Positions 40,561 to 64,000 of a stretch of 64,000 nt of DNA are shown here, piece after piece. The notes below the pieces were generated by a model that did no database searches, was not told where the DNA came from, and worked only from the letters and a program-made list of their open reading frames with translations. Each line of letters opens with the position of its first letter. The first letter of the stretch is position 1. A program made the translations under genes and the position numbers. Source of the stretch: Daejeonella oryzae DSM 19973 (GTDB lineage: Bacteria; Bacteroidota; Bacteroidia; Sphingobacteriales; Sphingobacteriaceae); the NCBI RefSeq assembly GCF_000422945.1, contig NZ_AUHA01000002.1:558001-622000 (forward strand). Direction: 5' to 3'.

Positions 40561-41394
40561 ATGAAATTATCCCTTGGCTTTTCTCCCTGCCCTAACGATA
40601 CCTTCATTTTTGATGCGATGATCCATCATAAAATTGATACTGAAGGTCTGGAATTCGATTTTTTTTTTGATGATGTAGAAACTCTGAATCAGAAAGCCTT
40701 ACGCCGGGAACTTGATATCACCAAATTAAGTTTTCATGCTTATTCTTATGTAACAGATCACTACGTGCTGCTGAATTCGGGCAGTGCATTGGGATTTGGC
40801 GTTGGGCCGCTGCTAATATCCAAAAAAGAGATCCTCAATCCATCGGCAGAAATGGAAAAGTTTCATATCGGCATCCCCGGAAAATACACAACTGCTAATT
40901 TCCTTTTGTCTCTGGCGTATCCGGAAGCGATAAATAAAACTGAAATGGTATTTTCGGAAATTGAAAATGCTTTAAATCAGGACAAAATAGACGTTGGATT
41001 GATCATTCACGAAAACCGATTTACTTATCTTGAAAAGGGATATAAAAAGGTGAAGGATCTGGGTGAATTTTGGGAGGATCTAACAAGCTGCCCGATTCCT
41101 TTGGGCGGAATCATGATCAGAAGAGATTTACCTGAAGAAATTAAACAAAAAGTTAACCGGATTATTCGCCGGAGTGTTGAATTTGCTTTTGAAAACCCCA
41201 AATCGGGTCTGGATTTTATCCGCTCTCATGCCCAGGAAATGAGCGAAGAAGTAATGTACAAACACATTGAATTATATGTGAATAAATATTCTATAGACCT
41301 GGGAGATGAAGGACGCAAAGCCGTAACTGTACTTTTTGAAGCAGCAACAACCCTGGATATTATTCCTAAATCAACAAAAAATTTATTCTTATAA
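40561..41394 (+). CDS. mqnD: 1,4-dihydroxy-6-naphthoate synthase
   Basis: Converts cyclic dehypoxanthine futalosine to 1,4-dihydroxy-6-naphthoate in the futalosine menaquinone pathway. It has 277 residues from the ATG at 40561, with the family opening LSLGFSPCPNDTFIFDAM and a periplasmic-binding-protein-like fold. The frame is open further upstream inside mqnB, but that start is foreign to the family. mqnA, mqnC and mqnE are not in the window. Confidence 0.94.
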   Translation: MKLSLGFSPCPNDTFIFDAMIHHKIDTEGLEFDFFFDDVETLNQKALRRELDITKLSFHAYSYVTDHYVLLNSGSALGFGVGPLLISKKEILNPSAEMEKFHIGIPGKYTTANFLLSLAYPEAINKTEMVFSEIENALNQDKIDVGLIIHENRFTYLEKGYKKVKDLGEFWEDLTSCPIPLGGIMIRRDLPEEIKQKVNRIIRRSVEFAFENPKSGLDFIRSHAQEMSEEVMYKHIELYVNKYSIDLGDEGRKAVTVLFEAATTLDIIPKSTKNLFL

Positions 41395-59333: not shown

Positions 59334-59763
59334 TTACTTTTATTATTTCGGATATGCCAGCAACCTGAAAACGTCCATTTTAGAGCAACGAACAGGCAGC
59401 AAAATTGAAAATTACATCCAGGGCAGGCTTTTAGATTATGGCTTTCGGTTTAACAAAAAGAACCCGGACGGAAGTGCAAGAGCAAACATTATTTCTTCCG
59501 AATCTGAAGATGTATTTGGCGTTGTTTACGAAATCGACCTGAAATATAAAGATCTGCTATTAAAAACTGAGCCCGGATATCGGCTTATTGAAGTTACAGT
59601 AGAAACCGGACAGGGAAACGTAATGGCTTTTACTTTTGTCTCTGATGCTGATGACGAGGATATTTATCCGGATAAAGAATATTTAAACAGCATTTTATCC
59701 GGAGCAAAAGACCATAAACTTCCACAGGAATACACCGATTTTATCCGCTCATTGGCTATATAA
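59320..59763 (+). CDS. Gamma-glutamylcyclotransferase-like protein (GGCT/AIG2 fold)
   Basis: A 147-residue protein beginning YYFGYASNLKTSIL, the GGCT substrate-binding (YGSNL-like) motif. The candidate catalytic Glu is in LLLKTEPGYRLIEV, preceded by VFGVVYEID. GGCT enzymes release 5-oxoproline from gamma-glutamyl compounds, but other members act on different amides. It is the last gene of the methyltransferase-HD-GGCT operon. Its 3' end overlaps the convergent UbiA gene by 8 bases. Confidence 0.88.
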   Translation: MENDNYFYYFGYASNLKTSILEQRTGSKIENYIQGRLLDYGFRFNKKNPDGSARANIISSESEDVFGVVYEIDLKYKDLLLKTEPGYRLIEVTVETGQGNVMAFTFVSDADDEDIYPDKEYLNSILSGAKDHKLPQEYTDFIRSLAI

Positions 59764-60640
59764 AATTCAGTATTGCAAAATAAATCAGCATCATAAAACC
59801 ACTTAAAAGAGTCATTCTTGACATATTCTTAAAATTTGCTTCTTTCGGATCGCGGTAAACTTTTACAAACCAGTTTAAAAAAAGTATAAAAACGGGTGCT
59901 GCAAAGGTCAGAAAAAGCCAAAAATTATTCATCATTTCCAGGCGATACCAGTAAATGAAAAGTAACAGGGAAGAAAGCAAAAAAAGAATAGCTGCAAACC
60001 AGAATGATCCGCGGATACCCAACACAATACTCAACGTTATATCTCCCCTTTTGCGATCTTCTTCGTGCTGATATACCTGGGTAAGCGGGTAAGTGGCCCC
60101 AATCAGACATGAACAAACCAATCCTGCAATTGTAAAATTCAAATTCCATCCGGTTAAACTGCCGAGACCTGAAACAGCGGCATAAGAACTCCAATAAACC
60201 GCTGCGCCCTGAAAAATAAAGACAATCAGGAAACTGATAACAGGATATTTTTTCCATCTGACGGAGGGATGGCTATATAATTTTGAAAACAAGCCGTACA
60301 CAAGAACGGCTGCAAACAGTATCCAGCTTACCCAAAGCGAAAGAATTATAGCCAGCAAATCCAATATTAGAGAAAAATTATAAAGACTTTTATCAACAGG
60401 GGGCGGATTTTCAATCAAAGCAATGCTGCCTTCATCTTTATCAAAATAGCTGTTATACCCGTTACTTGCTGGATAAACAAGCAAATGCCAGATGATAAAT
60501 GTTAAAACTGCATTCACCCAAATCAGTTGCGGTGCCTGACTGAGAGCAAACAAAAATACCGGCAACAGGAAAAAAGAAAAGGCAAAACGAAGGTGTAACA
60601 TCGCCGACCGTGTTGGCCAGAAATTCCTGATAAAATTCAT
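59756..60640 (-). CDS. UbiA-family prenyltransferase next to the type III PKS operon
   Basis: A 294-residue integral membrane protein with about eight or nine helices. The two Asp-rich motifs of UbiA enzymes are recognisable. The first, NSYFDKDEG near 82-90, differs from NDxxDxxxD: the second residue is Ser and the +8 position is Gly. The second, YQHEEDRKRGD near 195-205, is conserved. These enzymes attach isoprenoid chains to aromatic acceptors. It is divergent from the PKS gene across 142 bases, suggesting shared regulation and prenylation of the polyketide. A role in menaquinone synthesis is the main alternative. Confidence 0.82.
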   Translation of the reverse strand: MNFIRNFWPTRSAMLHLRFAFSFFLLPVFLFALSQAPQLIWVNAVLTFIIWHLLVYPASNGYNSYFDKDEGSIALIENPPPVDKSLYNFSLILDLLAIILSLWVSWILFAAVLVYGLFSKLYSHPSVRWKKYPVISFLIVFIFQGAAVYWSSYAAVSGLGSLTGWNLNFTIAGLVCSCLIGATYPLTQVYQHEEDRKRGDITLSIVLGIRGSFWFAAILFLLSSLLLFIYWYRLEMMNNFWLFLTFAAPVFILFLNWFVKVYRDPKEANFKNMSRMTLLSGFMMLIYFAILNFI

Positions 60641-60782
60641 TTTACTAAAGTATGATTAATGCAAATTCTTTATAGAATAGTGTTGTATTTTAAAAGCATC
60701 AAAACAGGATGAATTAACAGATGTTCATCATTTTATATTTACCAAGAACCATAAACCTAAATAATTAGTACTTTAACCTTAC

Positions 60783-61895
60783 ATGAACAGCTGTATAAGT
60801 GCGATTGGTACCGCAAACCCTAAATACCGAATTCCGCAGAATGACATTTACGGTTTCATGGTCAAAGCTTTTGATTTAGATGAAAATAATGCTTCGCGAC
60901 TAAAAAAAATATATGATCATTCGGGCATCGAGCATCGTTATTCGGTAATCCCGGATTTCGGCGAAGCAAATGGTCGCGATTACAGATTTTTCAATAACAG
61001 TCCGAATTTCGAACCTTTTCCAAGCACTCAAAATCGCTTGCAGCTTTATCAGCATGAAGCGGCAGAAATTGCTGCAGCTGCCGCAAAAAACTGTATCGAC
61101 TCGCTGACTGAAGATCTTACACCAAAAATTACACATCTGATAACCGTTAGCTGCACTGGCATGCACGCCCCGGGAATTGATATTGAACTGGTTGAAATAC
61201 TCGGCTTAAAAAGGAATATTGAAAGAACCTGCATAAATTTTATGGGCTGTTACGGCGCCCTCAATGCTCTAAAAGTTGCTGATTATATTTGCCGGGCGGA
61301 TACAAACGCCAAAGTTCTGATAGTTTGTATTGAACTTTGCACACTTCATTTCCAGAAAGAAAACACATTGGATAACTGGGTGGCCAATTCACTTTTTTCG
61401 GATGGCGCAGCAGCAGTGATTGTAGAAAATAACGATCATCGTACAGGTAATTCCAATAGCCTGACCCTAGATACTTTTTATTCTGAATTTGTACACGAAG
61501 CCCGAAGCGAAATGGGATGGTATGTTGGTAATGCAGGTTTTGAGATGAAGCTTACCTCCAAAGTTTCTAAACTTATTAAAAAACATATTTATTCAATTTC
61601 TGATCGCTTGCTTGAAAAGGCCGGGCTTGCATTCTCAGATATCGGGCGATTTGCTGTTCATCCCGGTGGCAGAAAAATTCTGGAAGCAGCAGAAAGTGCT
61701 CTCGGCTTTTCATCTGCAGCCAATCAGTTCGGATATGAAACTTTAAGAGATTTCGGTAATATGTCATCTGCAACTGTATTATTCGTCCTTAAAAAACTTT
61801 TGGATGAACCCAATAGTCCATCCGGAGAAAATATTCTCGGGTTCGCATTTGGCCCGGGCTTAACCGTAGAATCTATGATCCTGAAAAGAAATTAA
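60783..61895 (+). CDS. Type III polyketide synthase (chalcone/alkylresorcinol synthase family)
   Basis: A 370-residue homodimeric-type condensing enzyme that extends a CoA starter with malonyl-CoA and cyclises the chain. The catalytic triad is complete: C156 in NFMGCYGAL, H293 in FAVHPGG and N326 in GNMSSAT. A C-terminal FGPGLTVES glycine-rich loop closes the site. Bacterial relatives make alkylresorcinols, alkylpyrones or tetrahydroxynaphthalene; the starter cannot be told from the sequence by eye. First of three tightly packed genes (1-base gap to the methyltransferase). Confidence 0.94.
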   Translation: MNSCISAIGTANPKYRIPQNDIYGFMVKAFDLDENNASRLKKIYDHSGIEHRYSVIPDFGEANGRDYRFFNNSPNFEPFPSTQNRLQLYQHEAAEIAAAAAKNCIDSLTEDLTPKITHLITVSCTGMHAPGIDIELVEILGLKRNIERTCINFMGCYGALNALKVADYICRADTNAKVLIVCIELCTLHFQKENTLDNWVANSLFSDGAAAVIVENNDHRTGNSNSLTLDTFYSEFVHEARSEMGWYVGNAGFEMKLTSKVSKLIKKHIYSISDRLLEKAGLAFSDIGRFAVHPGGRKILEAAESALGFSSAANQFGYETLRDFGNMSSATVLFVLKKLLDEPNSPSGENILGFAFGPGLTVESMILKRN

Positions 61896-61896
61896 T

Positions 61897-62661
61897 ATGC
61901 CTGATTTTAGTCGCCGGAGCACTGAAGAAGAAATGATGGACGATTTTTCGCTTGGCCACGAAATTATCGACCCGATAATGGACGAGCTGGAAGTTGTAAA
62001 TAAACTCCTTGGCGGATATAATGTGTTTTTCAACGCTTTTAGAAAACTAAAAATCAGCAATGGTATGATCATCAGCGATTGGGGTTGCGGTGGTGGCGAT
62101 TCATTAAGAGTTATTGCGAAATGGGCCCGATCTAAAAACCTGAAGCTGAAATTAGTGGGAGTTGACGCTACAGAATCGGCCATAGAATATGCACGGGCCA
62201 AATCAAAAGATTATCCCGAAATTTCTTATATCCTGGCGGATGTAATGAGTGCAAAATTATATACAAACCAATTCGACATAGTTATATCAAGCCTGTTTAC
62301 ACATCATTTTGAGGATAAAAGTTGGGTAAAACTCATTCAAAAAATGGCCGATTGCGCAAGTGCCTGCGTGGTTATAAACGATCTGCACAGGCACTGGTTT
62401 GCGTATCATTCAATCGGTTTATTAACTTCCGCTTTTTCCCGATCAGAAATGGTGAAGCACGATTCTAAGCTATCTGTTCTAAGAAGTTTTAAACGCACAG
62501 AAATTGAAGAAATGTTGCGAAAAGGAAATTTTGACAGCTATTCTATAAAATGGAAATGGGCTTTCAGGTGGCAGGTTTGTATCGATTCAAGTTCTTTTAA
62601 AAACAGATTAGCGGAATTTAAGCCCAGAGAACAATTAATGCCTTTAATGATGGCTGAATAA
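61897..62661 (+). CDS. SAM-dependent methyltransferase of the PKS operon
   Basis: A 254-residue class I methyltransferase. Motif I is ISDWGCGGGDSLR (about 58-70), motif II is LVGVDATESAIEYA, and motif IV is FDIVISSLFTHHF. It lies between the type III PKS and the flavoprotein, and its stop overlaps the next start by one base (TAATG). It most likely methylates the polyketide product on carbon or oxygen, as SrsB does for alkylresorcinols in Streptomyces griseus (analogy of gene order and class only). Confidence 0.9.
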   Translation: MPDFSRRSTEEEMMDDFSLGHEIIDPIMDELEVVNKLLGGYNVFFNAFRKLKISNGMIISDWGCGGGDSLRVIAKWARSKNLKLKLVGVDATESAIEYARAKSKDYPEISYILADVMSAKLYTNQFDIVISSLFTHHFEDKSWVKLIQKMADCASACVVINDLHRHWFAYHSIGLLTSAFSRSEMVKHDSKLSVLRSFKRTEIEEMLRKGNFDSYSIKWKWAFRWQVCIDSSSFKNRLAEFKPREQLMPLMMAE

Positions 62662-63779
62662 TGAAAAATGCAATCATTATTGGCGGAGGTTTAGCCGGTT
62701 TAACCTGTTCCATCCTTTTACAAAGCAAGGGCTATCAGGTTACCCTGATCGAAAAGAAGAAATATCCTTTTCATCGCGTTTGCGGCGAATATATTTCTAA
62801 TGAGGTTCTTCCATTTTTAGAATCCTTAAATATCCGGGTTTCTGAGCTTAACCCCGCCCGACTCATCCATCTTTCCGTTACTTCGGTTTCAGGAAAAATC
62901 ATGGAAACTCCGCTCCCGCTGGGTGGTTTTGGTTTAAGCCGGTACAAATTTGATTTTTTATTATTTGAGCATGCTCAGAAACTGGGAGTGCAATTCATAT
63001 TTGAAAAAGTTATTGATATCAACTTTACCGAAAACACCTTTAAAATATCTTTATCAAACAATCAAATTTTAGAATCCGCTATCGCGATAGCTGCTTATGG
63101 TAAGCGGTCAAATCTGGACCAAAAACTTAAGCGCCAATTTTTTTACCGCCGAAGTCCATATTTGGGAGTAAAATATCATATTAAAACAGACCTGGCCAAC
63201 AACCTGATCAGGCTGGATAATTTTACAGGCGGATATTGTGGAGTTTGCAAAATTGAAGACGACAAATACAGTCTTTGCTACCTTTCTGAAACGGCCAATC
63301 TAAAAAAGTATTCAGGAATTAGTGAAATGGAAGAGCAGATACTTTTTAAAAATCCGCACCTGAAATATCTTTTTAACAATTCTGAATTTATTTTTGAAAA
63401 GCCCGAAGTAATAAATGAAATTTCTTTTGAACGCAAAACTTTGGTTGAAGATCATTTACTTTTTTGTGGAGATGCAGCCGGAATGATAACTCCGCTTTGC
63501 GGAAACGGAATGGCTATCGCCATTCACTCCGGAAAAATTTTGGCAGAAAGTATTCTTTCCTATACCCACAAAAACTCCGGTTTAAACCGCTTGCTTCTGG
63601 AAAAAGAATATATATACCGATGGGAGAAAGAGTTTTCGATACGATTAAAAAGCGGCAGATTAATCCAGAAATTGTTCGGTAATAAACATGTATCTAATCT
63701 TTCGGTTAGCGCTTTAAAATCATTCCCCTCAGTGACCCGATTTTTGGTTAAAAAAACCCATGGCAAAGCGTTTATATAG
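62661..63779 (+). CDS. FAD-dependent oxidoreductase of the PKS operon
   Basis: A 372-residue flavoprotein of the geranylgeranyl reductase/aromatic hydroxylase superfamily. The N-terminal FAD-binding sequence is IIGGGLAGLTCSILL with KYPFHRVCGEYIS following. The second FAD motif is LLFCGDAAGMITPLCGNGMAIAIHSG near 265-290. In a PKS-MT-flavoprotein operon it may hydroxylate the aromatic ring on the way to a quinone (SrsC-like). Alternatively it may reduce isoprenoid double bonds, which would fit the nearby UbiA enzyme. Confidence 0.9.
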   Translation: MKNAIIIGGGLAGLTCSILLQSKGYQVTLIEKKKYPFHRVCGEYISNEVLPFLESLNIRVSELNPARLIHLSVTSVSGKIMETPLPLGGFGLSRYKFDFLLFEHAQKLGVQFIFEKVIDINFTENTFKISLSNNQILESAIAIAAYGKRSNLDQKLKRQFFYRRSPYLGVKYHIKTDLANNLIRLDNFTGGYCGVCKIEDDKYSLCYLSETANLKKYSGISEMEEQILFKNPHLKYLFNNSEFIFEKPEVINEISFERKTLVEDHLLFCGDAAGMITPLCGNGMAIAIHSGKILAESILSYTHKNSGLNRLLLEKEYIYRWEKEFSIRLKSGRLIQKLFGNKHVSNLSVSALKSFPSVTRFLVKKTHGKAFI

Positions 63780-63791
63780 TAAATTGCATTC

Positions 63792-64000
63792 ATGAAATTA
63801 CGCGTTTTAGTCTTCTTAAATTCCCTTGCGGTCGCTTTAAGCCTTTCTATAATAAATTATTATTTCCAGCAAAATCTGTTGGATATGCTTATAACATTCG
63901 GCATTTCATTGGTTACCAGCTTTGTAGTATTTTATTATCTGATTGAAAAATTCGTATACAGCAAAATTAAACTGATCTACAAACTGATTCATAGCTTAAA
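63792..64000 (+). CDS. Sensor histidine kinase, N-terminal fragment (cut by window edge)
   Basis: The frame starts ATG at 63792, 12 bases after the flavoprotein stop, and runs off the window. The 69 visible codons encode two membrane helices (MKLRVLVFLNSLAVALSLSI, then a second containing FGISLVTSFVVFYYLIEKF) and a basic linker VYSKIKLIYKLIHSL. This is the usual beginning of PhoR-like kinases in Bacteroidota; the kinase core is outside. Identification rests on that resemblance. Confidence 0.6.
   Translation, partial: MKLRVLVFLNSLAVALSLSIINYYFQQNLLDMLITFGISLVTSFVVFYYLIEKFVYSKIKLIYKLIHSL

Follow-up and report, generated by a model that had tools for sequence, protein, structure and literature searches.

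The present analysis concerns a window of 64,000 nucleotides from Daejeonella oryzae DSM 19973 (contig NZ_AUHA01000002.1, positions 558,001 to 622,000), part of a 3.45 Mb genome, and within it four genes spanning 59756-63779, which encode a divergent UbiA-superfamily membrane protein (UbiA), a type III polyketide synthase (PKS), a methyltransferase (MT) and a flavin adenine dinucleotide-dependent oxidoreductase (FAD). These genes are genetically coupled and behave as one pathway, and it is fairly probable that this pathway leads to a prenylated phenolic lipid, namely a two-tailed membrane hydroquinone or quinone. The product is most likely a prenylated, methylated and hydroxylated alkylresorcinol in hydroquinone or quinone form. 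Type III PKS clusters have been predicted in all Mucilaginibacter species (PMC9843747) and represent 9% of the predicted clusters in Flavobacteriaceae (PMC7440613). What is defined here is a pathway rather than a lone PKS, with its partners UbiA, MT and FAD named even if unlinked and with a product class open to testing. Were the lipid a quinone, these organisms, which have their own menaquinone genes, would possess a second membrane redox carrier, derived from a polyketide; a carrier of this kind has been reported in Streptomyces and mycobacteria (PMC9927152).

Of 395 Bacteroidota genomes, 26 have a strong UbiA match (E<1e-80), and this set coincides exactly with the 26 genomes whose PKS scores highest. 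The PKS cut (E 3.5e-130) was chosen after viewing the ranking and falls in a narrow gap, the next match being at 3.7e-124, while the UbiA gap is wide (3.8e-86 versus 1.7e-43). Genomes sharing a family are not independent observations in these counts; the strong matches span families f1, f15, f25, f27, f29, f30 and f33, to which a UbiA search among relatives added f16 and f21. UbiA and PKS are adjacent in 20 of the 26 genomes and unlinked in six (G198, G242, G127, G439, G218, G210). Among 60 relatives, host genome counted, a PKS of the window clade is present in 27 (42-100% identity over the best stretch), and the same 27 carry UbiA at E<1e-90. The host genus includes 16 genomes with both genes and four with neither (G003, G004, G014, G017). 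The two genes lie close on one contig in 26 of the 27 relatives; in G011 they are on separate contigs, the PKS lying close to the end of its own. In G008 the PKS is present as two fragments on two contigs, and in G026 UbiA is located some 1.9 kb beyond the PKS, seemingly behind FAD. The recurrence of the gene set in several families makes the arrangement more than chance. The preliminary description had tied UbiA to the PKS operon, a link now borne out by co-inheritance in 26/26 phylum genomes and 27/27 relatives.

A second, weaker UbiA group comprises 34 genomes of family f44 (E 3.7e-32 to 1.7e-43) and a partial match in G146 (f44). All 35 hold a PKS; as 45 f44 genomes have one, 10 are without a UbiA of this group. 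In two f44 genomes (L145-L148) identity is 25-27% for MT and 22% for the FAD protein where it matches at all, and UbiA is unlinked. Their loci (L146:4491-8863, L148:3184-7556) feature a MATE-transporter-like gene, identified by eye, before the PKS, together with a divergent methyltransferase and a barely similar FAD protein. One genome with a UbiA match at 2.6e-11 (G063) is absent from the PKS list.

Named genomes were scanned through the best 80 of 563 confirmed related loci, which correspond to 79 genomes, with flanks of up to 7 kb, some ended by contig ends. The best named PKS relatives belong to Daejeonella and other Sphingobacteriaceae. Within these 80 loci, MT is found in 75, FAD in 74 and UbiA in 30, and the gene orders are UbiA- PKS+ MT+ FAD+ (15), UbiA- PKS+ FAD+ MT+ (11), FAD+ PKS+ MT+ (45) and others (9). 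Whole-genome searches of loci without a flanking UbiA recovered it in 15/15 cases in a first set, whose sixteenth member, L106, already carried a flanking UbiA, and in 32/34 cases in a second set, so that UbiA is present in 77 of the 79 genomes, in the flank in 30 and elsewhere or beyond a shortened flank in 47. A comparison of the four-gene set across relatives had been proposed beforehand; it upholds co-inheritance but not universal linkage, as the UbiA of Hymenobacter, Pontibacter and Rufibacter lies outside the fetched PKS flanks and is still present in the genomes. Pontibacter diazotrophicus holds two FAD-PKS-MT copies on different contigs (L101 and L102, one strain). In three genomes of one genus, the unlinked UbiA adjoins a similar gene (L135:7126-8034, L136:6527-7318, L137:5370-6152); of the two that were scanned, the L137 copy has a weak Methyltransf_25 match and the L136 copy none. 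This gene may be a methyltransferase, perhaps a second tailoring enzyme.

With presence called at E<=1e-60 for FAD (A3) and at E<=1e-35 for MT (A4), FAD was registered in 80 of the 395 phylum genomes, including all 26 with a strong UbiA, and all 80 also hold a type III PKS at E<=1e-40; in 54 of them there is no UbiA match at E<=1e-10. MT occurs in 81/395 genomes and in 24/26 of those with a strong UbiA, and one MT-positive genome (G173) is not in the PKS list. This distribution indicates a PKS-MT-FAD core wider than the UbiA partnership, with UbiA accompanying one PKS clade. Since FAD always occurs with a PKS and often without UbiA, it most simply acts on the polyketide, and it is a probable ring hydroxylase. 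Its score against the geranylgeranyl reductase family TIGR02032 is 97.6 bits, below the cut-off of 158.8, and indicates resemblance only. A role as isoprenoid reductase, at which this match hints, is disfavoured by the 54 genomes with FAD and no UbiA match; within UbiA-bearing genomes, FAD may reduce the prenyl chain.

The window UbiA belongs to its superfamily both by domain (PF01040 over cut-off, 3.7e-22) and by predicted fold, with TM-scores of 0.60-0.71 to archaeal UbiA entries. Its AlphaFold model (pLDDT, a per-residue confidence score, 91.6) was matched by Foldseek, with TM-scores of 0.60-0.70, to 6m31 (an archaeal lipid synthase, E 1.8e-6), 7bpu (digeranylgeranylglyceryl phosphate synthase, 3.8e-6) and 4tq3 (AfUbiA, the UbiA of A. 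fulgidus, 2.8e-5). The Asp-rich motifs of the superfamily are NDxxDxxxD and DxxxDxxxD. Those of the window protein read N63-S-x-x-D67-x-D69 and Q191-x-x-x-D195; N63, D67, D69 and D195 are invariant, and Gln191 replaces the first Asp of motif 2, as given by this general consensus, in 70/70 sequences. The protein has no match in plasmids at E<=0.01. An alternative, which we consider unlikely, is that PKS, MT and FAD make a plain alkylquinone of the srs/PkQ type and that UbiA is a separate coregulated enzyme, e.g. a terpene cyclase of the UbiA type or a transferase whose donor is not a prenyl group. The 54 FAD genomes and the 47 named genomes with UbiA outside the fetched PKS flank fit such a separation, as do the divergence of UbiA, its constant Gln191, the lack of any PDB sequence match at E<=1 and a weaker fold match to a membrane PRTase (8j8k, E 4.5e-3). 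However, UbiA co-occurs near-perfectly with one PKS clade, even where unlinked, and in three genomes of three families (G023, G051, G056; loci L029, L030, L031) it lies directly upstream of the PKS on the same strand, observations that speak against such a separate role.

The UbiA superfamily includes MenA and MqnP, and UbiA could in principle be the housekeeping menaquinone prenyltransferase, its PKS neighbourhood being accidental. This is hardly credible. The window protein has no match at E<=1e-3 to MenA or MqnP models in the NCBIfam scan, and its type is missing at the strong level from 369/395 phylum genomes. Moreover, the host genome encodes another UbiA (L001, contig 4) that exceeds the TIGR01475 cut-off and whose best matches include MqnP models, though at scores short of the cut-offs set for these; this gene is most likely the menaquinone prenyltransferase of the host. 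The genome also encodes a heme o synthase and two MqnA/MqnD-type proteins, and the menaquinone route is probably the futalosine one. The separate MqnP-like UbiA, the lack of a MenA/MqnP match and the absence of the strong type from most phylum genomes speak against the menaquinone assignment, the finding that the preliminary description had named as fatal to its proposal. An MqnA/MqnD-family gene lies inside the window itself, at 40567-41346 (G000:C1:598567-599346).

The PKS is a member of the type III PKSs (chalcone/stilbene synthase superfamily), with both domains over the Pfam cut-off (Chal_sti_synt_N 8.8e-31, Chal_sti_synt_C 2.6e-21) and an intact Cys-His-Asn triad. The earlier statement that all catalytic residues are present was confirmed: Cys156, His293 and Asn326 are kept without exception in 20/20 sequences of alignment A1 (the window and 19 of the 25 related loci L007-L031, distant loci L033-L035 omitted) and in 153/153 distinct PKSs, collected from 181 loci with a PKS covering at least 300 model positions after dropping duplicates. 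The predicted structure (pLDDT 91.6) is matched in Foldseek by mycobacterial type III PKSs, including PKS18. The best NCBIfam model for the PKS is NF042429 for DpgA (3,5-dihydroxyphenylacetyl-CoA synthase), which at 178.6 bits stays below the equivalog cut-off of 425.

Ring closure is addressed by Trp246, which is kept in 149/153 PKSs; the four with Phe at this position (L034, L035, L152, L187) all fall in a distant seven-member tree group, and their genomes have no UbiA match. Steely1, the top profile match of the PKS, carries Trp in the same column of the HMMER alignment. By hand count on the HMMER alignment, Trp246 aligns to Leu266 of PKS18, and Met255 follows it at a distance of 9, the same as that from Gly284 to Met293 in ArsC, ArsB and ArsC being placed through PKS18 and this spacing rather than aligned directly. 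Replacing Trp281 of ArsB by Gly abolished resorcinol synthesis and conferred pyrone synthesis, the reverse change in ArsC increased resorcinol (PMC6274091), and a Streptomyces PKS was predicted to be resorcinol-forming from the equivalent Trp (PMC9927152). Through this indirect mapping, Trp246 would be the counterpart of the resorcinol-directing Trp of ArsB. It is quite improbable that the PKS instead makes alkylpyrones on which the tailoring enzymes act: PKS18, which the PKS resembles strongly in fold and sequence, is reported to form pyrones (PMC6274091), but Trp246 and the Trp/Met spacing agree with the ArsB arrangement, as indirectly placed, and not with Leu266 of PKS18, and hydroxylation and prenylation of an aromatic ring would suit a phenol better than a pyrone.

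A long acyl tunnel of the PKS18 type was considered and rejected, as the published list of eight tunnel residues (A52, S143, C205, N208, A209, H221, L266, L348; PMC6274091) gave identity at 1/8 by hand mapping. In a distant type III PKS clade (29-31% identity), the locus L151:5220-10534 features FAD-MT-PKS followed by a FabA-like dehydratase, a ketosynthase, a carrier protein and a phosphopantetheinyl transferase, a neighbourhood that suggests a dedicated starter bound to an acyl carrier protein; the L152 locus is similar by eye, and the L151 genome has no UbiA match.

The closest known system is agq, an actinomycete cluster and hence of another phylum, which reportedly contains a UbiA-like transferase, a methyltransferase and an FAD monooxygenase; the four window genes match the agq type by enzyme class and co-inheritance only. 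In Actinoplanes missouriensis, the type III PKS AgqA forms alkylresorcinols which are then prenylated and hydroxylated (PMC10896814), and the products are, according to a title, alkyl-O-dihydrogeranyl-methoxyhydroquinones (Awakawa 2011, a reference in PMC10896814 and PMC7587189). The loseolamycin locus of Micromonospora endolithica encodes in a row a UbiA-family prenyltransferase, a putative methyltransferase, an acyl-CoA dehydrogenase and the type III PKS losA; its oxidoreductase annotation thus differs from the FAD oxidoreductase of the window, and its products, obtained by heterologous expression, are alkylresorcinols with a branched hydroxylated chain, the excerpt of the source mentioning no prenylation (PMC7587189).

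Three-gene operons of PKS, methyltransferase and oxidoreductase are known from actinomycetes, cyanobacteria and planctomycetes (PMC9927152, PMC8086630, PMC10896814). The preliminary description had likened the plus-strand genes to srsABC. The likeness holds by enzyme class, and a phenolic lipid or quinone pathway fits: srsABC of Streptomyces griseus and pkqABC of Mycobacterium and Streptomyces are likewise operons of PKS, methyltransferase and hydroxylase/oxidoreductase, which lead to alkyl-benzoquinones (PMC9927152). It does not extend to the methyltransferase, as SrsB is an isoprenylcysteine carboxyl methyltransferase (PMC6669644), whereas the window MT is a class I enzyme and not of the SrsB type; furthermore, PMC9927152 contains no word beginning with 'prenyl'. 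The hidABC hierridin clusters and the planctomycete MT-FDO-T3PKS operons share the three-gene set (PMC8086630, PMC10896814), and for planctomycete PKSs an alkylresorcinol product was demonstrated through heterologous expression (PMC10896814). Among hierridin-like clusters, a prenyltransferase is unique to one cyanobacterial cluster (PMC8086630), whereas it is a near-constant partner in the window-type set. A. missouriensis already provides one pathway to prenylated alkylresorcinols, and what the present set adds is the divergent UbiA and the strict co-inheritance over many families. The claim that no Bacteroidota product of this gene set has been characterised agrees with the open-licence literature searched, where none was found, although the set itself has a precedent in agq. 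Plasmid 3 of Deinococcus radiodurans (L210:4986-7945) carries a type III PKS next to genes for a class I methyltransferase and an FAD oxidoreductase, with 39% identity to the window protein for the PKS, 30% for MT and no match at E<=1 for FAD.

In the proposed pathway to a prenylated phenolic lipid, the PKS would accept a fatty acyl thioester primer, extend it with malonyl-CoA and perform an aldol closure, giving a 5-alkylresorcinol. FAD would then hydroxylate the ring and MT would methylate it, yielding an alkyl-(methoxy)hydroquinone which could be oxidised to the quinone. The membrane UbiA would add an isoprenoid chain, possibly on oxygen as the agq product name implies, and the end product would be a membrane hydroquinone or quinone lipid with a fatty and an isoprenoid tail. 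O-prenylation is proposed because digeranylgeranylglyceryl phosphate synthase prenylates an oxygen and because the name of the agq product denotes an O-prenyl ether; for the window UbiA it is a conjecture that merits a test. What we infer in this scheme are the length of the starter, closure to a resorcinol rather than a pyrone, the sites of methylation and prenylation and whether each falls on C or O, the order of steps and the physiological role. On a broader and more tentative level, it is possible, though doubtful, that several Bacteroidota families make a hitherto unobserved two-tailed polyketide-isoprenoid quinone by means of a UbiA in which Gln takes the position of a metal-binding Asp, and that this quinone serves them, alongside menaquinone, as a redox-active lipid of the membrane.

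Several observations weigh against the prenylated alkylresorcinol pathway. The Trp246 argument is indirect, since ArsB and ArsC themselves lie outside the alignment. The sole PKS18 tunnel residue found identical is Cys205 (C186 here), and some of the others are bulkier (I22, H189, F190, W246). With Gln at a motif Asp of UbiA, it is uncertain whether the enzyme is active on a prenyl diphosphate. As for distribution, G046 carries a weaker UbiA relative (7.6e-51) without any PKS match, two Mucilaginibacter loci (L050, a metagenome-assembled genome, and L052) hold PKS, FAD and MT with UbiA not found in the whole-genome search, and MT is missing from G242 and G423 at the cut used.

The placement of the four genes (Table 1) and the near fusion of the plus-strand genes, as first described, are matched by the open reading frame (ORF) coordinates, with gaps of +1 base between PKS and MT and -1 base between MT and FAD. 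In Pfam all four families are over cut-off, MT with Methyltransf_25 (1.3e-14) and FAD with FAD_binding_3 (4.8e-9). In NCBIfam, none of the four proteins exceeds a model's own cut-off among the matches listed (for FAD, the best 25 of 76 families); the top score of UbiA is 47.7 bits to a prenyltransferase model (cut-off 269), and that of MT is 150.7 bits to PRK06202 (cut-off 243).

Table 1. Coordinates of the four genes and their divergent spacer within the window.
Feature	Position	Strand	Details and basis
UbiA-superfamily membrane prenyltransferase, divergent subfamily (putative)	59756-60640	minus	294 aa; ORF list, Pfam, alignments, model
Divergent spacer between UbiA and the PKS operon	60641-60782		142 bases; probably contains both promoters
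Type III PKS, Cys156/His293/Asn326, Trp246	60783-61895	plus	370 aa; ORF list, Pfam, alignments, model
Class I S-adenosylmethionine-dependent methyltransferase (MT), Methyltransf_25	61897-62661	plus	254 aa; ORF list, Pfam, NCBIfam
FAD-dependent oxidoreductase, similar to geranylgeranyl reductases and to aromatic hydroxylases	62661-63779	plus	372 aa; ORF list, Pfam, NCBIfam, distribution

On the same strand, 12 bases past FAD, a gene reading as a sensor histidine kinase begins at 63792 and continues beyond the window end (L005:11792-12820), followed by phoU/pst-like genes identified by eye. A relative of this putative kinase gene was found in 26 of 110 loci, many of which are short. Transcriptional read-through from the FAD gene into it is possible.

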